This document shows, piece by piece, positions 1 to 21,461 of a stretch of 22,082 nucleotides of DNA. Position 1 is the stretch's first letter. Each line of letters opens with the position of its first letter. The notes beneath the pieces are model-generated. The model was not told the origin of the DNA. It made no database searches and saw only the letters and a program-made list of their open reading frames with translations. The stretch lies in contig JANQDY010000173.1 of NCBI GenBank assembly GCA_028278625.1, positions 1 through 22,082 on the forward strand. Reading direction: 5' to 3'. Position numbers and translations under genes: made by a program. This DNA is from Thermodesulfobacteriota bacterium. Lineage in GTDB: Bacteria; Desulfobacterota; DSM-4660; Desulfatiglandales; Desulfatiglandaceae.

Positions 1-240
1 AAAGACACGATGATCGCTTCCCATGTGCCGCTTGATGGACCTGATGGTATTCTCTGGATTGATGGAGGCCTGTCTCTTGGCCACGGAACCCACAAGGCGG
101 CGACCGTTGGCTGTTTCAGCGACCACGGAAGGCGTGAGGTGCTCCCCTTCCGTATTGGGAATAACCCTGGCTCTGCCGTTATCGATGAAGGCCGCCACGG
201 AATAGGTTGTACCAAGATCTATGCCGATTGCTCTTGACAA
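1..240 (-). CDS. Hsp70/DnaK-family chaperone, N-terminal part (runs off the window)
   Basis: The first 80 codons are present and the gene continues past base 1. The N-terminus reads [15 protein letters not shown], the phosphate-1 loop of Hsp70 ATPases (IDLGTTxS), followed by an N-T-E-G...T-P-S-V-V segment and [10 protein letters not shown], all in the order expected for DnaK. The start is TTG at 240, placed by a GGAG seven bases upstream; no ATG is available. It begins four bases after the stop of the receiver gene, so it should be the last visible member of the same operon. Hsp70 proteins are ATP-driven holdases/foldases that need a J-protein; the J-domain GvpF/L at 6459-7484 is a candidate partner (inference). 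Whether this is a full DnaK or a shorter Hsp70-like protein cannot be seen here. Confidence 0.9.
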
Positions 241-244
241 CGGT

Positions 245-877
245 TTACTCCGATTTCAATGGTTGGCGCTTTCCAAACCGGTTCAGCATCCCGGTAATCT
301 CTTCCACCGTGAACGGCTTGTCGATGAAACCAAAGACACCCCGTTCGCTGGCTTCCACGATCCGTTCCTCGCTGCCATAGGCGCTGATCACCACCACCAA
401 GGCCTTCGGGGCTCTTCTGTCGATAAGGGGAAGGATATCCATGCCATCGCCATCGGGCAGTTTGAGATCCAGAAAAACCAGATCTGGCTTTTTTAGAAGA
501 AGGGCAGTAGCATCCGCCAAACTGTTGGCCGTCTGTACATCATATCCTCTTGCATAAAGGGCGCTCGACAGAAGCCAGCATAGATCTTCTTCGTCATCGA
601 TGATCAGAATTCGCTTGATTTCTTTTCGAGGTATCCGGGGCGAAATCTTTTCGACCCTTGTCCTTCGTCGGTGTTCCCTCTCGCGTATGTCAAAAAAGGG
701 CTTCAGTTCCTTAAGGTCTTCGGGTCGTCGCCATCCGGAAAGCCCGCTTCGCCACACAAGTGCTTCATCACGCTTGATAATCCCCTTTAAGATCCAGTTT
801 TTCAGCCTGGGTTGGTAGACGGCAGTATAGGTGTCGGCCCCGCGACGGACATCATATTTCAATTCCTGGGTGGACAT
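245..877 (-). CDS. Response regulator with GYF_2/DUF4339-like N-terminus and receiver domain
   Basis: This 210-residue protein has two parts. Residues about 15-62 contain W-I-L-K-G-I-I and [12 protein letters not shown], the pattern of small GYF_2/DUF4339-type domains. Residues about 88-205 are a receiver domain with acidic pocket D94-D95, phosphoacceptor D137 (F-L-D-L-K-L-P), S165 and K187 (I-D-K-P-F). There is no DNA-binding output domain, so it probably acts through protein contacts. Its ATG follows the stop of the kinase gene as TGAAAATG, which suggests translational coupling and makes that kinase the likely phosphodonor. The next gene encodes the DnaK homologue. The receiver call is firm; the N-terminal domain is a pattern match only. 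Confidence 0.9.
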
Positions 878-879
878 TT

Positions 880-1602
880 TCAGGCCATGGGTAGAGAGAT
901 TGTAAAAATGGAGCCCTCGTTCTTCTGGCTTTCCACACTGATGGTGCCGCCATGACTGACCACCGTCGTATAGGTAATCGAAAGGCCGAGCCCGATCCCG
1001 GAACTCTTGGTGCTGAAAAAGGGGTCAAAGATGCGGATGATATCTTCCTCTCTAATGCCTTCCCCCGTATCCCTTATCTTGACCGCAAAAGAACCGTTTT
1101 TCATGTGGGTTTCAACGGTCAACACCCCTCCTTGGGCCATGGCTTCAATGGAGTTGATCATTACATTGACAAAAACCCGCATCATCTGCTCCCGATCCAC
1201 CAGAAGCGACGGTGGTCTGGCACAGTAGGATTTGCGGACACGGACTCTCTGAACCGTCATTTTGGCTTTGATTGAATCAAGGGTGCTGTCCAAAATGGCA
1301 TTGATATTGTGCGGCCTGATGTTGAGTTCCGGCGGTCTGGCGCAATTTAGCAGTTCCGTGATCAGAAAATTGATACGTTCTGTATTTCGCTCTATGATTT
1401 CAATATGCCGGGCCCAGGGGCTGTCCTTACTAAACGCCTCTTTCAGCTGCTTGGCCGACATGGAGACATTGGTCAGGGGGTTCCTGATTTCATGGGCAAT
1501 ACTCGCAGCGATTCTTCCCGTAAAGGCCAATCTTTCTGAAAAACCGGAAATTTCCTTTTGTTCTAATTGGATCTTGTCACGTTTTCCGTCGGTCAAATTC
1601 AT
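880..1602 (-). CDS. Soluble sensor histidine kinase
   Basis: This 240-residue kinase has almost only the catalytic core. The H-box is I-A-H-E-I-R-N-P with H37, the N-box asparagine is N150, the G1 box D-T-G-E-G is at 178-182, the F-box F-D-P-F-F follows, and G2 G-I-G-L-G-L is at 202-207. No transmembrane segment or PAS/GAF sensor domain is seen, so it is cytoplasmic and may receive its signal through a partner. The gene sits between a GvpJ-type gene and a receiver gene whose start is coupled to its stop, so the two probably form a pair. The ATG at 1602 follows a GAGAAGG sequence at very short spacing. The kinase assignment is certain; its signal is unknown. Confidence 0.95.
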   Translation of the reverse strand: MNLTDGKRDKIQLEQKEISGFSERLAFTGRIAASIAHEIRNPLTNVSMSAKQLKEAFSKDSPWARHIEIIERNTERINFLITELLNCARPPELNIRPHNINAILDSTLDSIKAKMTVQRVRVRKSYCARPPSLLVDREQMMRVFVNVMINSIEAMAQGGVLTVETHMKNGSFAVKIRDTGEGIREEDIIRIFDPFFSTKSSGIGLGLSITYTTVVSHGGTISVESQKNEGSIFTISLPMA

Positions 1603-1632
1603 CCTTCTCTTTGTCCCATAACACGCCTCAAC

Positions 1633-2346
1633 TTATAAAACTGCCGCTATTTGCCGCCCCCCCGCGGGACTGGTCCATCCACATTCCCCGCACCCGGCCT
1701 CCAGCAACCGCTGCCTCATATGGGGGTATCCACAGCCTGGGCAGGTTTCCGTCACATCATTTGGAAGGGTCTCAACTGAAAACCCCCCGCGCAAAACGGA
1801 CTTTAACAGCCCCTCTTTCAATTCTTCGACTTGCATGGCACGCAACCGGTGTCCCCGGCCCTTTTTCAGAAGCAAATGCAGCTCAAGATAGCCGTTTTGG
1901 TTTGTCCCGCTCTCCTGTCGGTAAAGGGTCAATCCCATGATGTCTTGAAATGCCACCTCGAAAAGGACACTGTTGAAGACATCATGATAGAGGACCAGGC
2001 GTTTGGAGGTCAAATAAAAGCAACCGCATTCCCAGGTATTGAACAGACCGTCATTGGAATAGCACGACCCATGCAGTTTTTTGAGCAATGTTTCATTGTG
2101 CAATAGCATCTCACATTTCTCTTGCCGGGCATCCCTTTCCCAATTGCGGATGCTTTCATCCCACTCCCGCATCACACCGTAATCCAGCATGGTTTCCATG
2201 CCCGCCAATGCCGCCCGCAGGCTCACACCGATCAGCGGGATGCCCGCCACGGAAACGATGAGATCCGCTTGAATCACGAGCCCTTTGTCCAGCACGCGAT
2301 CGAGCAAATCTACCAGGGTGGCGGGTGTATCTCGTTGGGGCGTCAT
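1633..2346 (-). CDS. GvpA/GvpJ-family protein with PH/GRAM-like domain and C-terminal zinc ribbon
   Basis: This 237-residue protein combines three modules. Residues about 8-58 follow the GvpA/GvpJ pattern (L-L-D-R-V-L-D-K-G-L-V-I, then A-D-L-I-V-S-V-A-G-I-P-L-I-G). Residues about 75-190 contain F-Y-L-T-S-K-R-L-V-L-Y and F-E-V-A-F-Q-D-I, typical of bacterial PH or GRAM-like folds. Residues 202-222 hold two CxxC pairs (C202/C205 and C219/C222) ending in C-G-W, a zinc ribbon. GvpJ-type minor proteins are usually about 100-150 residues and help nucleate vesicles or cap their tips, so the added domains are unusual. A similar ribbon ends the GvpJ-type protein at 3894-4280. The ATG at 2346 has no strong ribosome binding site. 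The GvpA-like part is secure, the PH/GRAM part moderate. Confidence 0.85.
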   Translation of the reverse strand: MTPQRDTPATLVDLLDRVLDKGLVIQADLIVSVAGIPLIGVSLRAALAGMETMLDYGVMREWDESIRNWERDARQEKCEMLLHNETLLKKLHGSCYSNDGLFNTWECGCFYLTSKRLVLYHDVFNSVLFEVAFQDIMGLTLYRQESGTNQNGYLELHLLLKKGRGHRLRAMQVEELKEGLLKSVLRGGFSVETLPNDVTETCPGCGYPHMRQRLLEAGCGECGWTSPAGGRQIAAVL

Positions 2347-2359
2347 GGTTCTTAGGGAT

Positions 2360-2387
2360 CAGTTATCAGTTTCCAGTGTTCAGCAAA
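2360..2387 (+). repeat. Degenerate heptamer array (CAGTNNN), four units
   Basis: Four consecutive seven-base units read CAGTTAT, CAGTTTC, CAGTGTT and CAGCAAA. The same heptamer family occurs at 3895, 9657, 16136 and, inverted, at 16349. It lies just upstream of the PH-like GvpJ gene, in the gap after gvpL. Confidence 0.7.
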
Positions 2388-2537
2388 TGGTTCTATAATC
2401 AAGACGATCTGTCGGATTACCTCATTGAAAACGATCCGGCGTTTACAGTGAGAATCGAAGAGGTCTATTCCGATCATGAAAATCAGGGTGGCATTACAAG
2501 CGAAAAGCCCTCAAAAGACTTAAACATCCCTCCTGAT
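2388..2537 (+). pseudogene. Possible remnant of an unrelated small gene
   Basis: In the 208-base gap between gvpL and the next gvp gene, the plus strand can be read as D-D-L-S-D-Y-L-I-E-N-D-P-A-F followed by R-I-E-E-V-Y-S-D. This has the look of a small helical antitoxin-like or conserved hypothetical protein. It has no credible start: the reading frame runs in from the heptamer array. It continues into the antisense of gvpL before stopping. It is best read as a decayed fragment that arrived with the repeat array; chance is possible. Confidence 0.25.
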
Positions 2538-2554
2538 CCAGTTGTCAACAACTG

Positions 2555-3559
2555 CTACACAAAACTGTACGGCGGCCAGGGGCCCGTATACCGCACTGAA
2601 AAGGCTTCCCGGCCATCAATCGCCTCAAGGATGTCCCCCAGCTTTCGACGGTTTTCCTCGGTGAGCAAGCAAGAGAGATTCAGCAGCATCTGAAGGGCGT
2701 CGTCTTCAGCTTTTTTAGTTTTTTCAAACCGAATGTCATCGGCGTACGGCTTGATCATTTGATAGAATTCCTGAAAGCATTCATCGGCTCTTCGGGACAT
2801 GCTGTTTTTCAGCACTTTCTCCACATTGTGGCGCAGCATATAGGCGACACCTCTCGGTTTTGTCCTGATCTTTTCCTGCAACCGTTTGAGATCATCAATC
2901 TCATCGCTGACTTTCCGTGCCATTTTCCGGGTCTCCCAGAAGATCTGGACCCCATATTCGGCCCTGTTCCTGACTTTTTTCAGCTTTGATTTCAGGTCCT
3001 CCCGATCGGCCTCGATCCACGCTTTGAGGGGAACAATGGGGCTTTCGCTCTTGCTGTCGGCAATTATGGTGTCAAATCCGATGGGAATAACGGTCCCAAA
3101 GGTCTTCCAGACTTTATCCACCACCCTCTGGTGGGCCAGAACCCATTCCCTGACCTTCTCTTGGTCTTCCGATTGATACGGTTCGGCGACGCAGTTGTGG
3201 ACAACCGCCGAAAGACTGCCGAAATCAAGAGTATAGACATCACGGCTTTCAATCCCTATGGGTCCGAAGACGTTTTCATGACCCCCGTCGGCAAGGCAGT
3301 AGAGATACAATCCAATTACGGATTTGGGATTGGGAATTGCGGATTGGTTGGTGGCGGGTTTGGGGAGAAGTGCCGGGGCATCTCCCTTTCCCACATCGGT
3401 TTTGAATGATTGTTCCAGAGATTTCAGTATTTCCGCTCGAATGGATTTTTTGAGTTCAGGAAGAAGGGTTGATGCCACGGCTTCCTTGATCGTTTCGCTG
3501 CTTTCCCCAAGGACCTTTTCGATTTCCGCCTTCACCAGTTCTTTGATGACTGTTTCCAA
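2555..3559 (-). CDS. gvpL: Gas vesicle protein GvpL/GvpF with helical N-terminal extension
   Basis: This 334-residue member of the GvpF/GvpL family ends in G-P-W-P-P-Y-S-F-V, the hallmark C-terminus. The family core begins near residue 81 (V-I-G-L-Y-L-Y-C) and includes P-I-G-F-D-T. Residues 1-55 are an added charged, probably helical extension, then a Pro-rich linker at about 65-80. That linker is encoded by a heptamer repeat at 3313-3347. GvpF/L proteins are minor cytoplasmic accessory proteins that bind GvpA during early assembly. The start is TTG at 3559, supported by a GAGG six bases upstream; no better ATG lies near the N-terminal helix. It follows gvpK by 44 bases. The L rather than F label rests on its length and C-terminus and is tentative. 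Confidence 0.92.
   Translation of the reverse strand: METVIKELVKAEIEKVLGESSETIKEAVASTLLPELKKSIRAEILKSLEQSFKTDVGKGDAPALLPKPATNQSAIPNPKSVIGLYLYCLADGGHENVFGPIGIESRDVYTLDFGSLSAVVHNCVAEPYQSEDQEKVREWVLAHQRVVDKVWKTFGTVIPIGFDTIIADSKSESPIVPLKAWIEADREDLKSKLKKVRNRAEYGVQIFWETRKMARKVSDEIDDLKRLQEKIRTKPRGVAYMLRHNVEKVLKNSMSRRADECFQEFYQMIKPYADDIRFEKTKKAEDDALQMLLNLSCLLTEENRRKLGDILEAIDGREAFSVRYTGPWPPYSFV
3313..3347 (+). repeat. Second heptamer family inside gvpL
   Basis: Five seven-base units (CAATTAC, GGATTTG, GGATTGG, GAATTGC, GGATTGG) lie in frame in gvpL. They encode the N/P/S-rich linker between its helical extension and the GvpL core. Confidence 0.6.
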
Positions 3560-3603
3560 TGACTCCCTCTTTCCCGCCCACGGTTAATCGTCTATGCTTG
3601 TTC

Positions 3604-3891
3604 TTACGGCGCCAGCACCTGATCCAGCAAATCATCCACAATGCCGTCCAGACCGTTTCGCACCGTTTTGACCGATTCGGTGATGCCTTGTTCCATTTTC
3701 ATGGCTTCAATGGCCGCATCCAAATCCATCAAGGCTTCCCCCAGTCGATTGGTCTCCTCTTCCGTCAATCCGCCGCCGTTCATCCGTTTTAAGGCCTGAA
3801 GCCGGAGTGCATCCTTGATGATTTCCACCAGCGCTACCACCAGGCCGAGAACACCATGTTTTATATTTTCTGTGTTGATGTCGATGGACAT
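3604..3891 (-). CDS. gvpK: Gas vesicle protein GvpK
   Basis: This 95-residue protein fits GvpK: an N-terminal I-K-H-G-V-L-G-L-V-V-A-L-V-E-I-I, the stretch L-Q-A-L-K-R-M-N-G-G-G-L, then E-E-E-T-N-R-L-G-E-A-L-M-D-L-D. The length is normal for the family. GvpK is a minor cytoplasmic protein needed for vesicle formation in organisms where it has been tested; its mechanism is unclear. The ATG at 3891 follows the stop of the preceding GvpJ-type gene as TGAAAATG, with no separate ribosome binding site. Translational coupling is therefore likely, and the two products may be made in a fixed ratio. Confidence 0.95.
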   Translation of the reverse strand: MSIDINTENIKHGVLGLVVALVEIIKDALRLQALKRMNGGGLTEEETNRLGEALMDLDAAIEAMKMEQGITESVKTVRNGLDGIVDDLLDQVLAP

Positions 3892-3893
3892 TT

Positions 3894-4280
3894 TCAGTGT
3901 TCAGTGTTCAGTGGCCGGTGGTTCAACTTTCCACTGATAGCTTCCTTTGCCTTTGCGCCGACCCAGCCGCACCAGGGGCAGCCGGTATTCATTAGATCTT
4001 CTTTGGCGATACGTTTTTCACATTGGGGACAATATTCCTTGTTCGCAACCGCCTCTTCCCAGGCGGGTGTTTCAAGGGCTGTTCCCGACGGGAACTCGAG
4101 ACCGTATCTGGCGGCGGTTTCAAAGGATGCCAGGGTGGCTCGGATCTTGATTCCTAAGAGTTCCACCCCCACCACGGATACGGTGATGTCGGCATTTATT
4201 ACCAGGCCCTTGTCCAGGAGTCTGTCAATGACATCCGCCAGTCCGGCGCCTCTCTCATCTCTGGTTGGCTCCATGGCCAT
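3894..4280 (-). CDS. gvpJ: GvpA/GvpJ-family protein with C-terminal zinc ribbon
   Basis: This 128-residue protein starts with a GvpA/GvpJ domain (about 13-62: D-V-I-D-R-L-L-D-K-G-L-V-I, A-D-I-T-V-S-V-V-G-V-E-L-L-G-I-K-I-R-A). A zinc ribbon follows, with C84/C87 and C101/C104 and the ending C-P-W-C-G-W. GvpJ-type proteins are minor, GvpA-like components thought to act in nucleation. The ribbon is not part of the classic protein and is shared with the PH-like GvpJ at 1633-2346. The last residues (L-N-T-E-H) are encoded by a heptamer repeat at 3895-3915, so the natural C-terminus may have been altered by repeat insertion. A GGAGG lies 13 bases before the ATG, a long spacing. The J label (versus M or S) is tentative. 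Confidence 0.88.
   Translation of the reverse strand: MAMEPTRDERGAGLADVIDRLLDKGLVINADITVSVVGVELLGIKIRATLASFETAARYGLEFPSGTALETPAWEEAVANKEYCPQCEKRIAKEDLMNTGCPWCGWVGAKAKEAISGKLNHRPLNTEH
3895..3915 (+). repeat. Heptamer array at the gvpJ 3' end, three units
   Basis: The units CAGTGTT, CAGTGTT and CAGTGGC are tandem and lie inside the last codons and stop of the GvpJ-type gene, directly before the gvpK start. Confidence 0.75.
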
Positions 4281-4304
4281 AATTTGTTTGATGCCTCCGT
4301 TTTT

Positions 4305-5054
4305 CTAGTACATCTTGTTGGTCTTTTGGTCCCCATTGACCAAATGGATGACACCTTTTCCGGCGCATTTCAGACATGTTAAAGCCGTGCCCTGTTCCAT
4401 GCCTGATCCGTTGCACTGGCTGCAAACGCCGATCGGTACACGCACCGACACAACGCCCTTGCCGCGACAGACTGGGCAGGCTCTACCGGTTCGCCGTTCG
4501 ATACCACGACCTTTGCAGAAGGCGCACGAAACAGCCGGCGGAACAACGATCACCCGGCCGGTGCCTCGGCAGACAGAACATGTGGCACCACCTCTCACTC
4601 TGCCTGTTCCCCTGCAACACCCGCACGGCTGGTCTTTTTCCTTCAGCAGGGAGATCTGAGCAGAGCCATTTAGGTTCCCCCACCGTGTATTCCCATAACT
4701 CACCAAGCGGAAAAGCCCCTCATCCTGACCGTTTTTTGGAAAACCATTTCGCACGGGGGCATGTCGCGTGGAAATCGGATTTACCGAACGCCAGTGAAAC
4801 TCTTCCTTCTGAATGCCTTTGGCAGGTACCCCGTGTCCCCTAATATTGCAGACCGTTTTCCCGGACCAGCCAAGGGCTTTTCGTCCTTTTGATGTGATTT
4901 TGAAACGACCCCGCCCCTCCCGTGCCAAATGCTCACTGCTGATCAGGCTGTTACAGAGCATGGTGGCATAGGATGCATCAATGCCCAACTGACGGCAGAC
5001 AAGGCGGGTTGTGGTCTCACCGCTCTCTCTGGCCACGGTCTTCAATGCTTTCAT
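4305..5054 (-). CDS. Winged-helix protein with six DnaJ-type CxxCxGxG motifs
   Basis: From the ATG at 5054 this is 249 residues. The first ~62 look like a winged helix (M-K-A-L-K-T-V-A, L-G-I-D-A-S-Y-A-T-M-L-C-N-S-L, then F-K-I-T-S-K-G-R-K-A-L). After a ~75-residue linker come six zinc motifs: CGCCRGTG, CSVCRGTG, CAFCKGRG, CPVCRGKG, CSQCNGSG and CLKCAGKG. DnaJ has four such motifs binding two zinc ions; six would allow three. There is no J-domain, so this is a DnaJ zinc domain on its own. ATG 5054 has an AGGA six bases upstream; a GTG at 5072 after TAGGAG is a plausible alternative. It is a paralogue of 11835-12209. Its role, perhaps binding unfolded Gvp proteins, is inferred. Confidence 0.85.
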   Translation of the reverse strand: MKALKTVARESGETTTRLVCRQLGIDASYATMLCNSLISSEHLAREGRGRFKITSKGRKALGWSGKTVCNIRGHGVPAKGIQKEEFHWRSVNPISTRHAPVRNGFPKNGQDEGLFRLVSYGNTRWGNLNGSAQISLLKEKDQPCGCCRGTGRVRGGATCSVCRGTGRVIVVPPAVSCAFCKGRGIERRTGRACPVCRGKGVVSVRVPIGVCSQCNGSGMEQGTALTCLKCAGKGVIHLVNGDQKTNKMY

Positions 5055-5082
5055 TTCGCTTCCTGAAACCACGCTTTTTCTC

Positions 5083-5349
5083 CTACTCGTGCGTCCATTC
5101 CGTATCAATCCGTCTTCTCATGCCGGTGCGCCGGAATTCGAGCATGCCGCCAGCCGCGTCCAGCCGCGTTTCGTAGGAAGCCAGAATATCCATCCCTTCT
5201 GGAATGGAGTGTTTTTCCACCACTTCAAGAACAACACGCCATTCGTCCTCTTCCTTCATCACCTCAATGGTGGAGGAAATCTCAAGTCCGGTAAGCGCAT
5301 TCAATTCGGACCGAGCCCTATCTACAATCTGCGCCATACCTGCAGCCAT
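5083..5349 (-). CDS. gvpO: Gas vesicle protein GvpO
   Basis: This 88-residue protein matches GvpO: A-R-S-E-L-N-A-L-T-G-L-E near the N-terminus, E-E-D-E-W-R-V-V-L-E-V-V-E in the middle, then I-P-E-G-M-D-I-L-A-S-Y-E-T-R-L-D and R-R-T-G-M-R-R-R. GvpO is a small accessory protein required for vesicle formation in haloarchaea. The ATG at 5349 has a GGAG seven bases upstream. It lies between gvpG and the winged-helix zinc protein, both within about 30 bases, so it is operonic. Confidence 0.93.
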   Translation of the reverse strand: MAAGMAQIVDRARSELNALTGLEISSTIEVMKEEDEWRVVLEVVEKHSIPEGMDILASYETRLDAAGGMLEFRRTGMRRRIDTEWTHE

Positions 5350-5378
5350 TATCCGTCTCCTTGTCTTTGGGGGTTCTT

Positions 5379-5627
5379 TCAGCCTGCCTGTGTCTCTTCT
5401 TTCAACCGCCGGATCATTTCGAGCTGCTCCATGAGGCGTTTTTCCTGTTTTTCATATTCTTCTTCGCTGATCTCTTCCATTTCAAATTGCATCTGGAGAT
5501 GCAATAGCCCTTCATAGATTTTTGATTCATCCGTCATTTCGCTATAGGCGGCATCCCGCAGTTTCTCACCCAGCCAGATGGTCAACTTAATGGGCGAAAA
5601 AAGAATGTCATCCAAAATGAAAGCCAC
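5379..5627 (-). CDS. gvpG: Gas vesicle protein GvpG
   Basis: This 82-residue protein has the GvpG signature at its N-terminus (F-I-L-D-D-I-L-F-S-P-I-K-L-T-I-W-L-G-E-K-L) and a charged helical second half rich in Glu (E-E-I-S-E-E-E-Y-E-K-Q-E). GvpG works with GvpF and GvpL in the accessory complex that binds GvpA. The start is GTG at 5627, fixed by the conserved M-A-F-I-L-D-D-I-L N-terminus. The gene follows a gvpF/L by 57 bases. Confidence 0.94.
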   Translation of the reverse strand: MAFILDDILFSPIKLTIWLGEKLRDAAYSEMTDESKIYEGLLHLQMQFEMEEISEEEYEKQEKRLMEQLEMIRRLKEETQAG

Positions 5628-5684
5628 GGCCTTTTGTCCTCTGAATCATTTCCACTACTTTCAAAGTTTCCGCTTCTTGCCAGT

Positions 5685-6437
5685 CTACCATTTCACAACG
5701 ATCTCCACGAAATTGCAGGGAGGAACGGGCCCCACGTACTTGAAAGTCATTTCTTCCCCATAGGTGTCCGAGATGGTTTCAACCGCATCATCAAACAAAT
5801 TCTCATTTTCCTTTTTCACCAGAAATGCAGCGTTAAGGATCATCTGATCTCCGAAATGGTTGTTCAGCTTCTTTTCGATCCACAAGCCATCCAAATTCCG
5901 TAGCAACTCTTTCTCGCGGTCTTCTTTCAAGGTTTGCAGGGCATCCTTGACCATTTCACCTAGACGCATCTGATCCCGCTGCGCGCCACCCCGCCGTTTT
6001 AGCAGACGGTCCCTAAAGCGGCTGATCTCACTGTTCCGGGACAAAATGCCGTCAAAAACCGGTTTCATCTCCTTCCAGATCCCCTTAAGACCCAGTTCGA
6101 CTTTGTCCTCCATATAAGCCAGGGTTTCCATCAGTTCCGCTTTCCTCTCTGAAAGGAGCTTTTCGCGGATCAGATCCACCCCTTCGCTCACCGTTCCAAA
6201 CCGCACCGGAAGCATGGGGTACGATGGCATGATCGTTTCCATCACATGTTGATGAGCAATGGTATTGGCCCGGGTGACCGGATATTGTTGAACCGGCGAA
6301 TCACTGATAACGGCCCCTAATCCCTCCCAGGTGACGGTGTAAACATTCGTCTTTTCCTTTCCGATGCTAATGGCACCGAAATCGGCGTCCCGGTCGGTTT
6401 TGATGATTGCGTAAATGTACTGTCCTTTCAGTGGCAT
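5685..6437 (-). CDS. gvpF: Gas vesicle protein GvpF/GvpL
   Basis: This 250-residue protein is a plain GvpF/L family member. The N-terminus reads Y-I-Y-A-I-I-K, a central P-V-R-F-G-T-V marks the end of the first domain, and F-K-Y-V-G-P-V-P-P-C-N-F-V closes the second. The start is ATG at 6437, eight bases after GGAGGAAG, rather than an in-frame TTG farther upstream. It follows the J-domain GvpF/L gene closely and shares with it the same core (about 240 residues), as does 9755-10507. The three presumably arose by duplication. The Cys in G-P-V-P-P-C replaces the Phe or Tyr usual at that position. Confidence 0.93.
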   Translation of the reverse strand: MPLKGQYIYAIIKTDRDADFGAISIGKEKTNVYTVTWEGLGAVISDSPVQQYPVTRANTIAHQHVMETIMPSYPMLPVRFGTVSEGVDLIREKLLSERKAELMETLAYMEDKVELGLKGIWKEMKPVFDGILSRNSEISRFRDRLLKRRGGAQRDQMRLGEMVKDALQTLKEDREKELLRNLDGLWIEKKLNNHFGDQMILNAAFLVKKENENLFDDAVETISDTYGEEMTFKYVGPVPPCNFVEIVVKW

Positions 6438-6458
6438 AAGAATTACTTCCTCCAATAA

Positions 6459-7484
6459 CTAATTGGAATTGCCCACCGCCTTTAGAGACACCCACTCCGC
6501 CACGTCCTGTTTTCCGAAACTGCAGGTGCTCTCGGTGCAGTAATCCGTTACCGTTTTATAGGCCTGGTTGATGGCCTCATACTGTTTCTGAGCCTCCGGA
6601 TGACCCGGAGACCTGTCCGGATGATTCTTTTTGCTCAGTTGCCGGTAATGGTCCCGAATTTCCCGCTGCGTGGTCTGCTCTGGCAGCTCAAGCACTTTTC
6701 GCGCTTGTTTCAGTTCCTCGTAGTCCGCCGTCCGGATTTCAATGGTTCTAAAACTGAAAGGGGGCAGCGGGCCGATAATTCGGAAATTGATGCGATCTTC
6801 ATAATGCCGGTCAAGCCCTGCGACAGTCCCCTCCAGTCGGTCTGCGTCTTCTCCGTTGATCAAGAACGCCCCATTCATGATCATACTGTCGTCCATAAGG
6901 GCGTGGATGCGGTGTTTTTCCGCCATGGCCACCAGAGGCGGCAAGATGACCGACTGAATGGTTTCACGCTCTTTGTCCAAAAGGGCCTTAACCCGTTTGC
7001 CCAACTCAATCTGAATCCGTAGAACAGCCTCTTTGGACGCATCGACCGCTTTCTTCTTGATGGCCAGAATCTCCTCTGATTTTCCGATCTCATCAAGAAC
7101 CGGAGCCAGATCGCGCCAGAGAGCGACCACATCCAACTCGATCTTGTTTTCCATATCTTTCAAGGATGCCGCAATCTGGTCTTTTCCCTTTTCCATCATG
7201 CGGATGACCGCCTCATCCCGGTCAAGCAGCGTTCCGAATTTCACCGGAATAACCGGACACTTTGCCATCACCGTTTCAATGGCGGACTGATAGGTGGTCA
7301 GGTTTCGAAGGAGGGATTCCTTGGGAATGTGATCATGTCCCGCCGGTTCGTTGCGGCTGATCAGAGCGGAAATATTTTCCAAGGGTAGGGTGTAGACTTC
7401 ACTACCGTCAATGCCGATGGCACCAAAACTGTGAACGTCACCTCCTTTTATGAAACCGTAAATGGTTCTGCCGTCATGTGTCAT
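6459..7484 (-). CDS. GvpF/GvpL fused to a C-terminal DnaJ J-domain
   Basis: Residues 1-250 are a GvpF/L protein (I-Y-G-F-I-K, F-G-A-I-G-I-D, V-I-P-V-K-F-G-T, I-G-P-L-P-P-F-S-F). Residues about 258-318 form a J-domain: A-R-K-V-L-E-L-P for helix I, I-R-D-H-Y-R-Q-L-S-K-K-N for helix II, the invariant H288-P289-D290, then Y-E-A-I-N-Q-A-Y for helix III. A short tail with two Cys follows. J-domains stimulate Hsp70 ATPase activity through the HPD motif, so this protein could bring the DnaK homologue (1-240) to nascent GvpA. The ATG at 7484 has a GAAGGAG seven bases upstream. Both domains are clearly visible in one uninterrupted frame, so the fusion is real in this sequence. Confidence 0.93.
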   Translation of the reverse strand: MTHDGRTIYGFIKGGDVHSFGAIGIDGSEVYTLPLENISALISRNEPAGHDHIPKESLLRNLTTYQSAIETVMAKCPVIPVKFGTLLDRDEAVIRMMEKGKDQIAASLKDMENKIELDVVALWRDLAPVLDEIGKSEEILAIKKKAVDASKEAVLRIQIELGKRVKALLDKERETIQSVILPPLVAMAEKHRIHALMDDSMIMNGAFLINGEDADRLEGTVAGLDRHYEDRINFRIIGPLPPFSFRTIEIRTADYEELKQARKVLELPEQTTQREIRDHYRQLSKKNHPDRSPGHPEAQKQYEAINQAYKTVTDYCTESTCSFGKQDVAEWVSLKAVGNSN

Positions 7485-7506
7485 CGCTCTACTCCTTCAT
7501 GTCGAA

Positions 7507-9639
7507 TTACTGTTGTTTCAATTCCTTGAGCGCATCTTGAAAATCCTCACTGGAAATCTCAAATCTGAGATGGTCCCGCTCACCGCTCACAATGAATTTT
7601 CGAATGGCTTTCATGGCGGCCTTTTCACATATTGATTCCAGATCCGCTCCCACCAGATCTTGGGTCACTTGGGTCAGGGATTCCAGGTTCACATCGCTGG
7701 CCAAGGGCTTTCCCCGTGTATGAACCTTCAGGATTTCCAGTCTGGCATTTTGGCCCGGAATGGGGATCTCAAAATGAAAGTCGAACCGACCGGCCCGGAG
7801 CAAAGCCTCATCAATGATATCCCGGCGATTAGTGGCTGCCAGCACAATGATCCCCTTAAGCTCTTCGATACCGTCCATTTCCGTCAAAAACTGGCTGATA
7901 ACCCGGTCCGCCACATGGGAAGAGCTGTCTGTCCCCCGTCTTGGCACAACACTGTCAATCTCATCGAAAAAGATAATGCAGGGTGATGCCTGTCGGGCCT
8001 TCTTAAAGACTTCCCGAACCCCTTTTTCGCTCTCACCCACCCATTTGCTCATGAGTTCCGGTCCCTTGATGGAAATGAAGTTTACTTCCGACTCCGATGC
8101 CACCGCCTTGGCCAGAAGCGTCTTCCCGGTGCCGGGGGGGCCGTACAGCAGAATGCCCTTGGAGGGCGTGGCACCCGCGACTTTGAAAAGATCGCCGTGT
8201 TTAAGAGGCCATTCAATGGTTTCCTTAAGCACCCGTTTGATCTCTTCCAGCCCTCCCACATCGCTCCATTTGACATTGGGAATTTCCGTAAACACCTCCC
8301 TGATGGCGGACGGTTCGACGGATTTTAGGGCCTCCAGAAAATCGTCCATGGAGACATGAAGGGTTGTGAGCGTTTCATAGGGAATTTCTTCCAGCTCAAA
8401 GTCAATTCGGGGGAAAATTTTCCGAAGGGTGGCCATGGCCGCTTCTCTCGAAAGGGCTTTCAAATCGGCGCCCACAAATCCATGGGTAATTTCAGCAAGG
8501 CGTCTCACGTCCACGTCTTCCGCAAGGGGCATCCCCCGAGTGTGTACATCCAGGATGGCCAGTCTTCCGTTAGTATCGGGAATCCCGATTTCAATCTCAC
8601 GGTCAAAACGGCCGGGCCGCCGGAGTGCCGGGTCCAGAACATTGGGGATGTTTGTAGCGCCAATGACGATGACCTGGCCACGGGATGAGAGTCCGTCCAA
8701 AAGGGCCAGAAGCTGTGCCACCACCCGTTTTTCAACCTGTTTCTCTCCTCCCATCTCCTCTCGCTTGGGGGCCAGGGCATCAATCTCGTCTAGGAAGATG
8801 ATGCTGGGGGCACGAGCCGATGCTTCGTCAAAGATCTTTCGGAGGTTGGCCTCACTCTGACCGTAGAACTTGTGCATGATTTCCGGACCGCTGATGGTGC
8901 GAAAAAAAGCATCCGTCTCATTGGCCACGGCACGGGCGATCAGTGTTTTCCCGCAACCCGGCGGTCCGTGCAGCAGAACCCCTTTCGGCGGATCGATGCC
9001 AAGACGCTCAAAAATTTGGGGGTATTTCAGTGGCAATTCGATCATTTCGCGGATTTTTCGAATTTCACGGCCCAGCCCGCCAATGTCTTCATAGCTGATG
9101 CGTGTTTTACCTTCGCCGGGCTCTTTCTTTTGCTGAATCTCCATGGCCGTCTGAGGATGAATGATCACCACGCCCTGGGGAACGGTTCTCGCCACCTTGA
9201 AATCTTGGGTTCTGGAACCGATCAACCGGGTACGCACCAGGTCCCCTTCTACCAGGGGAAGGCCTTCCAGAAGGCTTCCGATATACCGAGCGTCGTAGGA
9301 GCGCATTGCGCTCAGGGGCGCTACAACGATTTTTCGGGCCGGCTGAAAATCGCTTCTTGTAACGGTTACCTTTTCATCGATACCCACCTGGGCATTCTCC
9401 CGGGTGATCCCGTCCAGCCGAATCAATCCCCTGCTTCTGTCGTCCATATAGGCGGGGAGCACCTTGGCCACGGTCCGGCGTTTGCCGCTTACCGTAATCA
9501 CGTCACCCACCTGAACGCCCAGCGTCTCAAAATCCCCCGGGTCAAATCGAACGATGCCGCGCCCCACGTCTTTGGCTGTGGCTTCCGCCACTTTGAGGGT
9601 CAGAGAATTCGTTTCGGATTTTTGATTGTCGGAAGTCAT
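7507..9639 (-). CDS. CDC48/VCP-type AAA+ ATPase
   Basis: This 710-residue protein has the full CDC48 layout: an N-domain (about 12-175, with R-G-I-V-R-F-D-P) and two AAA modules. D1 has Walker A G-P-P-G-C-G-K-T at 225-232 and Walker B I-I-F-L-D-E-I-D at 280-287. D2 has G-P-P-G-T-G-K-T at 500-507 and I-I-F-F-D-E-I-D at 555-562. R-P-G-R-F-D and R-A-G-R-F-D follow the respective modules. CDC48 proteins are hexameric unfoldases common in archaea and less so in bacteria. Here the gene lies between gvpF/L genes, so a role in vesicle assembly, remodelling or turnover is likely but inferred. The ATG at 9639 has only a weak GGGG upstream. Confidence 0.95.
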
Positions 9640-9656
9640 TGATACCCCACATGTGG

Positions 9657-9691
9657 CAGTGGTTGGCCATCAGTTCCGAGTGGTCAGTTGT
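9657..9691 (+). repeat. Degenerate heptamer array upstream of the CDC48-like gene
   Basis: Five seven-base units (CAGTGGT, TGGCCAT, CAGTTCC, GAGTGGT, CAGTTGT) fill much of the 115-base gap between the gvpF/L at 9755 and the ATPase gene. They are more degenerate than the other copies. Confidence 0.5.
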
Positions 9692-9754
9692 GGGTTAGAA
9701 GCTTCTTTTCAGATGGACGCTAAGAAGAGATGAACCGACCACCATCGCTGTTGG

Positions 9755-10507
9755 TTACAATTTCATTTCAATGCTCACAAAATTAAAAGGGGGTGCCGGG
9801 CCCACCAGCTTGAAATTCGCTTCATTTTCATATTCTTCCGCCAGATCTTCCACCAAAAAGTCAATCTGCTTTTCCCGGGTTCGGTCGATTAAGAATACCG
9901 CATTAATAAACATGTCATCCCCCACCGGTTCCTGCTGTTTCATGCCCAGGGTCAACCGCTTGAACAGGCGCAGTATTTTTTCGCCAAGATAGACCTTTTC
10001 TTCATCCAGGGCAGCTTTCACGGCCTTGCCAAGTTCGATTTTGAGGGTGTCGCCTGTCTCCCCTTCCCGGCCTGAAATTTCGGCTTTGAGCGCTTTTACA
10101 TCCGGATCGTTCTTTCCGATATCTTCAAAAACCTTATCCATCCGGGTCCAGCGCGCTTTCAACCCCATCTCCACTTTATTATCCAGGTCATGGAGCATCC
10201 CCTTGAACTCCCCGTACTGCCGCCGTAGAAAAGTCCGGACTTCTTCCGCGCTGTTGGCAATGGTACAGAACCTCACCGGCAGAACCGTATAGTCTTTCAT
10301 CACCTCTTCGATCACTTTCTCATGGACGGTCAGGTTCTCAGGATCGATGACATATTGGGTGATGGGTGAAGAACTGATAACCGCGCTGATGTCCTGGAAA
10401 CCGATTGTGGAAACGATGTCTCCCCGTTTGCCGATACCGATGGAGCCGAAATTCCGGCCCTCGTTGCCGTTGATGATGCAGTAGATGTATTTTCCCTCTT
10501 TGGCCAT
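9755..10507 (-). CDS. gvpF: Gas vesicle protein GvpF/GvpL
   Basis: This 250-residue GvpF/L protein has Y-I-Y-C-I-I-N at the N-terminus, F-G-S-I-G-I-G-K-R, V-L-P-V-R-F-C-T-I in the centre and F-K-L-V-G-P-A-P-P-F-N-F-V-S near the end. The ATG at 10507 has GGAG five bases upstream. It is the first of four GvpF/L genes in transcription order. It is most like 5685-6437 in size and layout, with no added domain. A heptamer-bearing gap separates it from the downstream CDC48-like gene. Confidence 0.93.
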   Translation of the reverse strand: MAKEGKYIYCIINGNEGRNFGSIGIGKRGDIVSTIGFQDISAVISSSPITQYVIDPENLTVHEKVIEEVMKDYTVLPVRFCTIANSAEEVRTFLRRQYGEFKGMLHDLDNKVEMGLKARWTRMDKVFEDIGKNDPDVKALKAEISGREGETGDTLKIELGKAVKAALDEEKVYLGEKILRLFKRLTLGMKQQEPVGDDMFINAVFLIDRTREKQIDFLVEDLAEEYENEANFKLVGPAPPFNFVSIEMKL

Positions 10508-10552
10508 GGTCTCTCCACACTCGTTTGGGGCGTTTGCACTGCGTAAGGCTCG

Positions 10553-10852
10553 TCAATAGTCCATTTTCATGACCTTTATACCGCTTTTGGGCAGCTTTTT
10601 TGGCGCAGCCTGGCCGTCAGCCATCTGGGCCTTTTTCTCCAGTTCCGCGATTCTGTTTTCAATATCTGCGATACGGGTTTCAATCTCATTTTTTCGCTGA
10701 CTGATGCTGCCAAGTTCCTTTTTGGATAGAGACAGATTGTTCTTCAACAGGTAAATCTCAGCTTCATTTGCTCTTTCGGCTTTTGGCAACGAACGGTGTT
10801 TCATCCCCATGAGCGTTTTAACGTGAGTCAGCGAACGAACTCTTTTTCCCAT
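10553..10852 (-). CDS. Small coiled-coil protein, possibly GvpV-like
   Basis: This 99-residue protein has a basic N-terminus (R-V-R-S-L-T-H-V-K-T-L), a long coiled coil at about 28-75 with regular I/L spacing (I-E-T-R-I-A-D-I-E-N-R-I-A-E-L-E), and a basic tail ending in M-K-M-D-Y. The arrangement resembles the small GvpV proteins of other gvp clusters, but I cannot confirm homology. The ATG at 10852 has AGGAGG six bases upstream. It lies between gvpN and a gvpF/L gene, so a structural or assembly role is likely. Confidence 0.7.
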   Translation of the reverse strand: MGKRVRSLTHVKTLMGMKHRSLPKAERANEAEIYLLKNNLSLSKKELGSISQRKNEIETRIADIENRIAELEKKAQMADGQAAPKKLPKSGIKVMKMDY

Positions 10853-10872
10853 GAAACGCCTCCTTTCGACCC

Positions 10873-11787
10873 CTAACAGATCTCATTAATTAGCTCGTTG
10901 ATGACGCGCTTCACCCGTTTCTGGCTTCCGGCGGTGCCGATACGGCTGGTCTCCGAAGACAGAATATCCATGCAGGTCTGCCTGAATATGGGATCCTCTT
11001 TGTCCACCGACGCCTCCCGGACGGCGATGGCCTTGGCAATCATGATGCAGCCTCTGATGGTAGGCGCGAACTCATAGGAATCCGATTCCCTGAGTCCCCT
11101 GACGACCCGCACGATTTTGGTGGCATCCCCATTGACAAGACCCGATTTGAACTCCGTGATGCGGATTTCCGTCTCTTCGTCGAAGTAGTCCACATCCAGG
11201 GTGATCATCCGGTCCCGAAGCGCGTCCTGGCTACGGTGGACACCTGCGTATTCTTCCGGGTTGCTGGTGAAGATGGCGGTAAAAGCAGGGTGTACCTTCA
11301 GATAATTCCCTTCGCCCTGACGGGGGACCGGCAGATCGAGCATCCGTTCTTGAAGCACCGACAGTAAAATATTGTTGGCTTCAGGCCTTGTGCGGGTAAA
11401 TTCGTCGTAAATGAGGGTGAAGCCGTTTTTGCAGGCCACGGTCAACCGGTTGTCGGCCCATCTTTTCTGCATGTCCTCTTCGGTCTTCTTGACGGTGTGA
11501 ATGAAATTGTCCACCACTTTCCGCCTGCGAAACCCGGTCTCACCTCCCACCAGATCCGAAGTGGAGAATTCCTCGTCTCCATGGATCATGACCACGGGCC
11601 GTCCGATCATGGCCGCCACATGCATGGCCAGGGTGGTTTTGCCGGTTCCGGAGATCCCCCTGAAATGGATGGGAAACCCTGCCGCAATATAGGCCATGGC
11701 CCGTTCCGTGATATCCTGCACATAGGGCGTTTTCACGAAATTGGGCAGTGAACGGGGCTCCAGAACCGTTGTGCTGTTCAGTGACAT
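10873..11787 (-). CDS. gvpN: Gas vesicle protein GvpN, MoxR-type AAA+ ATPase
   Basis: This 304-residue protein has P-Y-V-Q-D-I-T-E-R-A-M-A-Y at the N-terminus and Walker A G-I-S-G-T-G-K-T-T at 44-52. H-G-D-E-E-F-S-T-S-D-L follows, then Walker B L-I-Y-D-E-F-T-R around 125-132 and the sensor region F-T-S-N-P-E-E-Y-A-G. All of these are standard for GvpN. GvpN is an ATPase needed for vesicles to enlarge to full size in several organisms. The ATG at 11787 has AAAGGAGG at good spacing. It is the best-conserved accessory gene here and fixes the identity of the cluster. Confidence 0.97.
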   Translation of the reverse strand: MSLNSTTVLEPRSLPNFVKTPYVQDITERAMAYIAAGFPIHFRGISGTGKTTLAMHVAAMIGRPVVMIHGDEEFSTSDLVGGETGFRRRKVVDNFIHTVKKTEEDMQKRWADNRLTVACKNGFTLIYDEFTRTRPEANNILLSVLQERMLDLPVPRQGEGNYLKVHPAFTAIFTSNPEEYAGVHRSQDALRDRMITLDVDYFDEETEIRITEFKSGLVNGDATKIVRVVRGLRESDSYEFAPTIRGCIMIAKAIAVREASVDKEDPIFRQTCMDILSSETSRIGTAGSQKRVKRVINELINEIC

Positions 11788-11834
11788 GGAATCCTCCTTT
11801 TCCAGACAAAAACCGTAAGCTGTTTTGCAGAGTT

Positions 11835-12209
11835 CTATTCCCTGCCGTCCTCTGAGTGTTTTACCGTAATGGCGCCTTTACCGCCGCAGGTGAGACAGGG
11901 CAGGTATTCTCCCTGCCGGGACCCTTTTCCATCGCATCCGTGACAGGTTTGAGCGGGTTCTTGCAACAAAACCACCCCTTTTCCAGCGCAGACGGTACAT
12001 ACCATCCGCCGGTGGACATGAACCCCCGTACCGCTGCAATAGGCACAGGGGATAACCGGCCCGAGGATTGTCACTTTACCGCTTCCCCCGCAGACCTGAC
12101 AGCGGGACCCCGCTGCAAGAAGCCCAAAGGGATCCCGGCCAGCGCTTCTGCAAAACGCGCAATCAACGGTGATGACGCCATTTATGTCCGCACTGTTCCG
12201 TTGGTCCAC
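11835..12209 (-). CDS. Small zinc protein with six DnaJ-type CxxCxGxG motifs
   Basis: This 124-residue protein is almost entirely a zinc domain. Its motifs are CAFCRSAG (degenerate), CQVCGGSG, CAYCSGTG, CTVCAGKG, CHGCDGKG and CLTCGGKG. Their spacing matches the zinc half of the winged-helix protein at 4305-5054, so the two are paralogues. It has neither J-domain nor winged helix. The start is GTG at 12209, five bases after AGGAGG; a TTG at 12281 would add a poorly conserved extension. It lies between the GvpC-like gene and gvpN. It may hold unfolded Gvp proteins in the way the zinc region of DnaJ does (inference). Confidence 0.83.
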   Translation of the reverse strand: MDQRNSADINGVITVDCAFCRSAGRDPFGLLAAGSRCQVCGGSGKVTILGPVIPCAYCSGTGVHVHRRMVCTVCAGKGVVLLQEPAQTCHGCDGKGSRQGEYLPCLTCGGKGAITVKHSEDGRE

Positions 12210-12305
12210 GTTCCCCTCCTCTGCCGGCGGCCAGGGTTCTAAAAGGGCGGCGCATAGGCTCCGTTCCTTCCATGGCCACAAGTGTTGTGTAAAAATGAGC
12301 TGTCG

Positions 12306-14930: not shown

Positions 14931-15134
14931 TTACGCCGTCGCTGTGAGTCCCACGGCCTCGGCATACTTCAGATAGGTTTCAACACCGGCAACCACGGCA
15001 CGCGCTTCAACCGCCAGGAGTTCGATGCCAACGAGAGAAACCCTTGCCCATGCGTCCACAACAACGCCCTTGTCCAGAATCCTGTCCACCACCTCTGCCA
15101 GACTTGAGGAAGCCATTGATTTTTCCATTGCCAT
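14931..15134 (-). CDS. gvpA: Gas vesicle major structural protein GvpA
   Basis: This 67-residue protein is a near-canonical Gvp[30 protein letters not shown], then [14 protein letters not shown]. GvpA polymerises into the gas-permeable, water-excluding ribs of the vesicle wall. The start at 15134 follows AAAGGAG at good spacing and gives the standard length; an upstream in-frame GTG would add 12 residues and remove that site. It is the first gene of the minus-strand array and lies behind a sigma-54 promoter at 15227-15241. It is shorter at the C-terminus than some GvpA proteins but complete in its conserved core. Confidence 0.98.
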
Positions 15135-15182
15135 GATAAATTCTCCTTTCTCCTTTTGAATTTGAACCACTTTTTACATCCT

Positions 15183-15199: not shown

Positions 15200-15226
15200 G
15201 TTCCGTATTGCTTGCCAGTCTTATAC

Positions 15227-15241
15227 GCATGTGCCGTGCCA
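15227..15241 (-). promoter_or_regulatory. Sigma-54 promoter of gvpA
   Basis: The minus strand reads TGGCACG, four bases, then ATGC. The -24 element is a perfect match to the sigma-54 consensus. The -12 element keeps the invariant GC with one mismatch in TTGC. The GG-to-GC spacing is exactly as required. It lies 93 bases upstream of the gvpA start codon and 90 bases from the palindrome at 15331-15368. Confidence 0.85.
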
Positions 15242-21404: not shown

Positions 21405-21435
21405 GGAGGTCCATCTCTCAGACTGTGCTATTGCT

Positions 21436-21461
21436 GTTGCATACTGTTGCATTTAGTTGCA
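21436..21461. promoter_or_regulatory. Operator: three GTTGCA repeats, 10-bp period
   Basis: GTTGCA occurs at 21436, 21446 and 21456, one helical turn apart, so all copies face the same side of DNA. The array abuts the -10 element and covers the predicted start site of the XRE-GvpH gene. Repression by the XRE domain of that same protein is the simplest reading (inference). Confidence 0.65.

Follow-up and report, generated by a model that had tools for sequence, protein, structure and literature searches.

In the isc operon, HscA is a dedicated Hsp70 and HscB its J-protein, which has a C-terminal helical domain and IscU as its client. The sHsp-DnaK/DnaJ-ClpB disaggregase is built of successive tiers (an sHsp, a J-protein, an Hsp70 and a double AAA+ ATPase), and the zinc domain of DnaJ carries four CxxCxGxG motifs. 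For gas vesicles the question is how aggregation of GvpA, a small and very hydrophobic protein, is avoided and its delivery to the growing shell achieved. In the available parts of PMC11445434 and PMC9501494, GvpF has been proposed as a chaperone of GvpA, and the former report also names GvpG as a possible chaperone. No description of a gas-vesicle system formed by a J-domain fusion and an Hsp70 was found in the open-licence papers searched. Many gas-vesicle bacteria appear to tie folding machinery into their gvp set, in the form of a J-domain carried by an assembly protein and, often, of a private Hsp70.

The window, i.e. the whole stretch of 22,082 nucleotides that was analysed, contains the following features, with the gas-vesicle genes, the fusion, the zinc proteins and the Hsp70 all on the minus strand.

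1..240, minus strand: N-terminus of an Hsp70, truncated by the window end, after a kinase/regulator pair (PF00012, 87.7 bits over 80 residues)
245..1602, minus strand: two-component pair, a response regulator at 245-877 and a histidine kinase at 880-1602, lying between the GvpJ-type gene and the Hsp70 (PF00512/PF02518, PF00072)
1633..2346, minus strand: GvpA-like protein of the GvpJ type with C-terminal CxxC pairs (PF00741, sequence)
2555..3559, minus strand: GvpF/L, GvpL-like (PF06386; lineage profile: Halobacterium GvpL 195.8, GvpF 75.6 bits)
3604..3891, minus strand: GvpK (PF05121)
3894..4280, minus strand: GvpA-like protein of the GvpJ/S type with a C-terminal CxxC...CxxC (PF00741, sequence)
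4305..5108, minus strand: ZnB, six CxxCxGxG motifs (4353-4625; PF00684 DnaJ_CXXCXGXG, 34.9 bits for 4305-5054), start uncertain and possibly at 5108
5083..5349, minus strand: GvpO (PF05800)
5379..5627, minus strand: GvpG (PF05120)
5685..6455, minus strand: GvpF/L, GvpF-like (PF06386; lineage profile: Halobacterium GvpF 99.8, GvpL 65.4 bits)
6459..7484, minus strand: GvpF/L fused to a C-terminal J-domain, FLJ (PF06386 and PF00226, AlphaFold2 model, Foldseek)
6615..6623, minus strand: HPD motif of the FLJ J-domain (codons translate to HPD)
7507..9639, minus strand: Cdc48-type ATPase with an N-domain and two AAA+ domains, immediately 5' of the fusion gene (PF00004 twice, PF02359, PF02933)
9755..10507, minus strand: GvpF/L, GvpF-like (PF06386; lineage profile: Halobacterium GvpF 93.1, GvpL 48.3 bits)
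10873..11787, minus strand: GvpN ATPase (NCBIfam TIGR02640, 347.4 bits, cut-off 266.8)
11835..12281, minus strand: ZnA, six CxxCxGxG motifs (11874-12161), the first degenerate (CAFCRSAG; PF00684, 34.0 bits), start uncertain and possibly at 12281
14931..15170, minus strand: GvpA shell protein (PF00741)
20319..21452, minus strand: HTH and Hsp20 protein, GvpH-like (PF01381 27.7 bits, PF00011 26.7 bits, both above cut-off)

The fusion, the two zinc proteins and the Hsp70 N-terminus are thus where the original prediction had placed them. In FLJ, Pfam recognises GvpL_GvpF (PF06386, 150.3 bits against a gathering score of 23.6) at residues 8-245 and DnaJ (PF00226, 52.5 bits against a cut-off of 27.8) at residues 263-314. 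The AlphaFold2 model is confident (mean pLDDT 92.9, pTM 0.83) and forms helices at 255-264, 273-286 and 296-315, with the HPD motif (residues 288-290) between the last two, as in a class C J-domain protein. In Foldseek searches the model matches the GvpF structures 6l5d and 4qsg at E 1e-12 or better (6l5d, 1.9e-15), and many J-domains, including 5nro chain B, at weak E values (0.015 or higher) with a probability of 1.00. The protein is not of the HscB type, scoring 19.7 bits under a cut-off of 46.75 (NCBIfam), and its non-J part is GvpF/L. The GvpF and GvpL proteins of Halobacterium, Anabaena and Microcystis have in common with it the 6l5d/4qsg fold and the gas-vesicle neighbourhood; the fusion differs from them in its C-terminal J-domain and in forming a separate lineage, equidistant from Halobacterium GvpF and GvpL (98.7 and 92.4 bits with the fusion-lineage profile). 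It is also below both NCBIfam equivalog cut-offs (cyanobacterial GvpF, 59.6 against 350 bits; GvpL, 40.6 against 200 bits). Because of this near-equal closeness to GvpF and GvpL, the dedication to GvpA contained in the original prediction is an unproven guess.

The fusion is one GvpF/L lineage, spread over many bacterial phyla. In a tree of the GvpF/L domains of 40 chosen loci, a single branch (SH-aLRT 98) splits the 24 fused domains from the 90 unfused ones, implying one origin of the fusion. Homologues of the window protein number 149; among the 120 listed, its own entry included, precomputed annotation gives both domains in 118 and the HPD motif is present in 119, the lone exception (P0078) having the appearance of a frameshift. 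The motif is found in 97/97 distinct fusion loci, and none of H288, P289 and D290 varies among 40 aligned fusions that are 31-65% identical to the window protein. Another genome has, at locus L145, the parts of the window in identical order plus a second GvpA, so that with 149 homologues the arrangement is more than chance. Five homologues of alphaproteobacterial type, that of Octadecabacter antarcticus 307 included, have lost HPD although the J profile continues to recognise them (15-28 bits); J activity may therefore be dispensable within that group. Octadecabacter is a gas-vacuole-containing genus to which the cultured strain O. arcticus 238 belongs (PMC3646047, available part), and the term 'DnaJ' is absent from the main text of that report on its gas-vesicle cluster. 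Like the window, the cluster of O. arcticus 238 carries a fusion with HPD; unlike the window, it has no Hsp70, zinc or Cdc48 gene.

The Hsp70 has a fixed position 3' of the last GvpJ-like gene and a lineage of its own. Over its 80 residues, the window Hsp70 has 14 best matches among the 34 Hsp70s compared that are all gas-vesicle-linked, at 61-77% identity. The highest-placed canonical DnaK comes 15th, canonical DnaKs as a group spanning 51-61%, and the other 11 gas-vesicle-linked proteins fall at 50-63%. Its full-length relatives consist of NBD, linker and SBD-beta and are shortened at the C-terminus, and that of locus L001 matches the DnaK structure 2v7y with 621 bits. The 25 gas-vesicle-linked Hsp70s separate with support 100/99 from 8 canonical DnaKs that come from eight of the fusion genomes. 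Of R167, N170 and T173 (E. coli numbering), which we take to be the DnaK residues contacting the J-domain, the first and third are found in 25/25 gas-vesicle-linked Hsp70s and N170 in 20/25, while the linker motif L-x-D-V is present in all 22 that cover that region. These contact residues, like the invariance of HPD across wide divergence, make it very unlikely that the J-domain is vestigial or acts as a structural clamp, with the Hsp70 carried as an operon passenger that perhaps serves the adjacent two-component pair. The five homologues that have lost HPD would fit such an explanation, as would the Hsp70 following the kinase/regulator pair in the window, L001 and L005 (the pair lies beside the Hsp70 in the same order also in L081, L131, L136 and L145); however, in 10/14 further loci the Hsp70 comes after the GvpJ-type gene without an intervening pair of this kind.

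Fusion loci were counted as well covered if they extended to GvpK and then either contained an Hsp70 or continued for at least 2 kb. Of these 34 loci, the window among them, 16 have an Hsp70 3' of the last GvpJ-like gene and 18 have none; 15 are without a zinc protein, 11 without both and 12 have both. The picture is thus mixed with respect to the original expectation that the fusion should not occur without the DnaK or the zinc proteins in most relatives. The 18 loci without Hsp70 and the five related proteins without HPD are the observations that go against the reading favoured here. In complete sampled gas-vesicle clusters, an Hsp70 is present in 6/11 with the fusion and in 0/30 without it, bearing out, with its lineage and fixed position, its claimed membership of the cluster. 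When the three centre genomes are dropped, the figures are 3/8 and 0/30 (p 0.007) or, letting in clusters cut at the 5' side, 5/14 and 2/38 (p 0.011), p-values that are rough because of the shared ancestry of the loci; the two fusion-less clusters with Hsp70 (L131 and L144) are both cut by the contig start.

From domains, conservation, lineages and gene association we infer that the fusion is probably a class C J-domain protein specialised for gas-vesicle assembly, paired with Hsp70 much as HscB is with HscA. Its GvpF/L half would bind either an intermediate of assembly or one of the hydrophobic GvpA/GvpJ-family shell proteins, and the J-domain would recruit Hsp70 and trigger ATP hydrolysis, so that Hsp70 would clamp the client until its entry into the growing shell. 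The partner would be a private Hsp70 paralogue, encoded at the 3' end of the gene set, in about half of the well-covered clusters, that of the window included; in the others the general DnaK would have to serve the fusion. Hsp70 matches are present in 25/25 fusion genomes tested. The likeness to HscA/HscB lies in a J-protein with a non-J client-binding part and a divergent Hsp70 paralogue of the same gene set, beside the general DnaK. The differences are that the client-binding half, as predicted here from sequence, is GvpF/L rather than a helical domain, and that the private Hsp70, though its lineage is co-inherited with the J-protein, is missing from those 18 loci.

In the original prediction the relay also included the zinc proteins, viewed as one part of a DnaJ split in two that would bind the client and hand GvpA to Hsp70 through the fusion. 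While the J-fusion and the cluster Hsp70 stand, this role of the zinc proteins is highly improbable. It is true that in the 18 genomes tested the short J-less zinc frames share their contigs with gas-vesicle genes in every case but one, the 4.2-kb contig L211, on which an Hsp70 fragment is the only recognised neighbour, and that J-less CxxCxGxG-type chaperones exist (BSD2 of plants, and PSA2, ZnJ2 and ZnJ6, in the available descriptions). Taking the pairing in DnaJ as we assume it, the strand order in the ZnA model (11835-12209, pLDDT 88.4) also suggests motif pairs 1-6, 2-3 and 4-5, an extended form of the DnaJ pairing. However, a DnaJ-length frame (368-439 residues) with a zinc domain is retained elsewhere in 16/18 fusion-bearing genomes, the zinc trait requires 14 changes on the fusion tree against 5 for Hsp70, so that the two were gained or lost separately, and the motifs are six, not four as in DnaJ or, as described, in ZnJ6. 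A class A DnaJ or a split one, in which J-domain, G/F linker, four-motif zinc domain and C-terminal client domains would make up a single chain or be inherited together as separate parts, is thus not supported. The six motifs recur at near-constant spacing in 52/58 zinc frames listed with at least five strict motifs (15, 18, 16, 18 and 16 in ZnB), and the PF00684 scores of ZnA and ZnB are barely above the cut-off of 32.7 bits. No Foldseek match of ZnA reaches E<=0.001; the top one is a DnaJ zinc finger (E 6e-3, probability 0.23, TM 0.21-0.25), followed by anti-TRAP with higher probabilities (0.72 and 0.69), and in NCBIfam anti-TRAP scores slightly over DnaJ for both proteins, every score being below cut-off. 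ZnA and ZnB form two families; the head of ZnB before the motifs looks winged-helix-like by eye, all its HTH matches being sub-threshold.

The fusion's most regular neighbour, a Cdc48-type ATPase that an Hsp20 usually accompanies, had no place in the original reasoning. The window protein scores 948.8 bits with the NCBIfam CDC48 model (cut-off 802.65). Among 65 distinct fusion loci whose upstream sequence is 4 kb or longer, Cdc48 is present in 58 (directly upstream in 48) and Hsp20 in 57 (in 42 within 2.5 kb upstream of Cdc48), and both probably work on the same clients as the fusion. All four proteins, Hsp20, Cdc48, the fusion and Hsp70, are encoded in 14 loci, the window among them, four being counted through an adjoining fetched stretch. 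Such a set could also act in reverse, as a quality-control or disassembly crew that resembles the sHsp-DnaK-ClpB disaggregase, with ClpB replaced by Cdc48, and pulls misassembled or collapsed GvpA off aggregates. The gene counts agree with this reading, which is nonetheless rather unlikely: Cdc48 and Hsp20 are also found in 13 and 14, respectively, of 53 sampled gas-vesicle loci without the fusion, the available parts of PMC11445434 and PMC9501494 place GvpF in assembly in other species, and Pfam recognises no protease family in any of the 25 window frames tested. With respect to the disaggregase, each tier has a putative counterpart in the 14 loci, but the AAA+ protein is Cdc48-type rather than ClpB and the window has no GrpE among its Pfam matches. 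It is possible, if doubtful, that the four proteins form an ATP-driven machine for one organelle in which Hsp20 holds, the fusion targets, the private Hsp70 clamps and Cdc48, as an unfoldase, threads the hydrophobic shell subunits.

A J-domain on a GvpF/L protein, with PF06386, PF00226 and a strongly conserved HPD as originally claimed, would link GvpA delivery to Hsp70 biochemistry, in which a single motif, HPD, is open to mutation and the stimulation of ATPase activity can be assayed; the natural loss of HPD in O. antarcticus 307 offers a ready-made control. The fusion and its Hsp70 might raise the yields of heterologous gas vesicles, which serve as acoustic reporters (PMC10344784, available part). 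The four-tier machine, if true, would be a complete protein-homeostasis network for a single protein shell, with Cdc48 replacing ClpB.

The fusion gene (6459-7484, minus strand) matches PF06386 and PF00226, each well above the cut-off, and the AlphaFold2 model of its product (pLDDT 92.9, pTM 0.83) shows the three helices of a J-domain, with HPD between the second and the third. Structural matches of this model are to crystal structures of GvpF and, at lower strength, to J-domains, among them the DnaK-bound one in 5nro. The gene stands within the following set on the minus strand, given from 5′ to 3′ (coordinates where assigned).

20319-21452, minus: HTH and Hsp20 domains in one chain, GvpH-like, with a possible DNA-binding head
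minus: unknown protein
minus: hybrid kinase
minus: NtrC-type regulator
minus: GvpA
minus: two long proteins of no clear family, one of them with many coiled-coil-like matches
11835-12281, minus: ZnA, a protein with CxxCxGxG motifs
minus: GvpN
minus: small coiled-coil-like protein
minus: GvpF-like protein
7507-9639, minus: full Cdc48-type ATPase (N-domain and two AAA modules), directly 5′ of the fusion
6459-7484, minus: GvpF/L-J fusion
minus: GvpF-like protein
minus: GvpG, then GvpO
4305-5108, minus: ZnB, the second protein with CxxCxGxG motifs
3894-4280, minus: GvpA-like protein (GvpJ type) with C-terminal CxxC pairs, a zinc-ribbon-like tail (CxxC...CxxC)
minus: GvpK
minus: GvpL-like protein
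1633-2346, minus: second GvpA-like protein (GvpJ type) with the same kind of tail
minus: kinase and regulator pair
1-240, minus: start of Hsp70

Rfam (gathering thresholds) and tRNA scans of the window gave no matches, and sigma-70 and terminator matches were at chance level, as were sigma-54-like sites (15 found, 10.9 expected). One site of this chance-level class, at 15226-15241 (minus strand, two mismatches), lies directly ahead of GvpA and matches the presence of an NtrC-type regulator.

The protein search returned 149 homologues of the fusion, and HPD is present in 119 of the 120 listed, the exception (P0078) appearing frameshifted; H288, P289 and D290 are invariant in a 40-sequence alignment whose members can be as little as 31% identical to the window protein. 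By HMM the fusion was found in 80 of 81 loci (window included), all 80 with HPD, while in the remaining one (L063) the match stops at the contig end. A wider count of 201 in 210 scores P0045 negative by a script artefact, this protein having HPD, and a stricter motif window misses P0195, a 214-residue fragment. By record title, the best 80 of 97 relatives in the genome scan come from Desulfobacteraceae, other deltaproteobacteria, Nitrospirae, Elusimicrobia, Planctomycetes, Omnitrophota, Chloroflexi, Actinomycetota, Acidobacteria and others; nearly all are metagenome-assembled, and some taxon names may be mistaken. Seven plasmid records match the fusion, none covering more than 80% of the query at a single site; the J-domain is reached only by the match in Octadecabacter arcticus (query 55-315). 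An assembly or frameshift artefact is ruled out by 97 distinct fusion loci (107 minus eight loci of the phylum samples and two others sharing the J-region).

The fusion lineage has a single origin: one branch of the tree separates all 24 fused GvpF/L domains from the others (support 98; 114 domains from 40 chosen loci). That it might be GvpF proper was rejected on lineage-profile and NCBIfam scores, its profile scoring Halobacterium GvpF and GvpL at 98.7 and 92.4 bits, with no preference, whereas the profiles of the other GvpF/L types of the window clearly match one or the other. Databases already record the domain pair, both through precomputed domains and under 'DnaJ-domain-containing protein' labels; neither a GvpF/L-J fusion nor a gas-vesicle Hsp70 was seen described among the open-licence PubMed Central papers searched.

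In clusters covered as far as the 3′ end, Hsp70 often comes after the last GvpJ-like gene, directly or behind a kinase/regulator pair, so that gene order here is fixed. Derivation from the host DnaK by local copying was rejected on the tree, where 25 gas-vesicle-linked Hsp70s, spanning several phyla by record title, branch apart from eight canonical DnaKs of eight fusion genomes (100/99; rooted on one divergent Hsp70 only); the 80 Hsp70 residues of the window match this distinct lineage best. All 25 keep R167 and T173 (E. coli DnaK numbering) and 20 of them N170; the linker L-x-D-V is kept in each of the 22 that cover it. Most stop before the canonical tail, and those of L047, L059 and L133 end at 485-504 residues. 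On another gas-vesicle contig (L209:3132, G003:C5), a second divergent frame of 638 residues that weakly matches Hsp70 (78 bits) sits between an NtrC-like gene and GvpA.

Association of this Hsp70 with the fusion was evaluated in phylum samples of genomes that match GvpF/L. The regions examined, mostly a single cluster from each genome, came from 21 of 26 such genomes in Desulfobacterota, 20 of 28 in Actinomycetota and 41 of 44 in Chloroflexota. The phyla are named from the record titles of the centre genomes (L001, L067 and L078), which were picked because they bear the fusion and are themselves included, as are L008 and L013 (the latter scored for Hsp70 from its extension, L082). Of 85 loci, 41 are complete (containing GvpK, with 3 kb or more downstream and 1 kb or more upstream), or 38 without the centres. 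Hsp70 is associated with the fusion, being present in 6/11 complete clusters with it versus 0/30 without, and in 3/8 versus 0/30 when the centres are left out (p 0.007, kinship uncorrected). Four Hsp70-positive sample loci in which the fusion is not in view (L131, L136, L144 and L163) belong to short contigs or are truncated by a contig start. The co-occurrence of fusion, Hsp70 and zinc proteins named as a check in the original prediction held only in part, Hsp70 being absent from 18, and both from 11, of the 34 well-covered fusion loci (window included), namely those that reach GvpK and show Hsp70 or extend at least 2 kb further. On the fusion tree, Hsp70 requires five changes over 49 loci, which fits a single old partnership followed by several losses, if without proving it, and the zinc trait 14.

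The zinc proteins had been regarded as the half missing from a split DnaJ, a view not borne out, as 16 of 18 fusion genomes retain elsewhere a DnaJ-length frame including the zinc domain (the G002 and G019 assemblies show none). In these 18 genomes short J-less zinc frames are found on gas-vesicle contigs, except for one short contig where only an Hsp70 fragment was recognised beside them. Six CxxCxGxG motifs are present in 52 of 58 listed frames (the list holding those with at least five strict motifs), and spacing distinguishes ZnA (typically 20,18,16,18,16) from ZnB (14-17,18,17,18-19,16). Motif number and spacing, with the DnaJ-length gene retained elsewhere, led to rejection of plain DnaJ fragments as an explanation, and we read the zinc proteins as cluster-specific, with an unsettled role. 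The strands of the ZnA model (pLDDT 88.4) suggest motif pairing 1-6, 2-3 and 4-5, which would extend the pairing of DnaJ; the structural matches of the model are weak, the DnaJ zinc finger being first by E-value (6e-3, probability 0.23), followed by anti-TRAP (0.39, probability 0.72). Winged-helix-like stretches are seen by eye before or after the zinc region of ZnB (window 4305-5108, L003, L005, L016, L020 and L022). In Pfam, the HTH matches of the window protein and of L005 stay below threshold, and L016, L020 and L022 have none; ZnB proteins might be regulators. A Phycisphaerae cluster carries a 488-residue frame (L040:2488-3951) with 14 strict (16 loose) motifs.

The Cdc48-type ATPase is the most regular neighbour of the fusion: of the 65 distinct fusion loci whose upstream sequence reaches 4 kb or more, 48 have it immediately 5′ and 58 have it anywhere in the locus. 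Hsp20 occurs in 57 of the 65, and in 42 it lies no more than 2.5 kb upstream of Cdc48; its labels were assigned by likeness to the window protein, with 91/91 labelled frames matching the Hsp20 part of that protein and 4/4 tested passing PF00011. Cdc48 is found in 9/11 complete sampled clusters with the fusion versus 5/30 without, and in 13 of 53 sampled loci lacking it. The boldest reading that this allows would be an organelle-specific disaggregase-like network.

GvpF is reported to bind GvpA and has been proposed as its chaperone, and for GvpL, binding to GvpJ, to GvpM and to numerous further Gvps is reported (PMC11445434, PMC9501494). The fusion would deliver GvpA-family clients to Hsp70, the partner being presumably the private copy encoded in the cluster in the case of this window, and DnaK where the cluster encodes none. 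In function, HscB/HscA would be the closest to the fusion and Hsp70, and the ClpB disaggregase is the system to which the disaggregase-like network is compared.

The Octadecabacter arcticus 238 cluster, from a genus described as gas-vacuole-containing in PMC3646047, has a fusion with HPD and, among Hsp70, zinc, Cdc48 and Hsp20 partners, only Hsp20. HPD is present in 82 of 89 homologues of its protein; two give no J-domain match, and five (P0132 of Octadecabacter antarcticus 307, P0128, P0129, P0134 and P0139) match the J profile without HPD, showing, for example, QQD instead. These five sequences, the Octadecabacter arcticus cluster and the clusters without Hsp70 count against the proposed delivery of clients to Hsp70: J activity can probably be lost, the private Hsp70 being optional. 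The HPD-less homologues offer a natural experiment on the importance of J activity.
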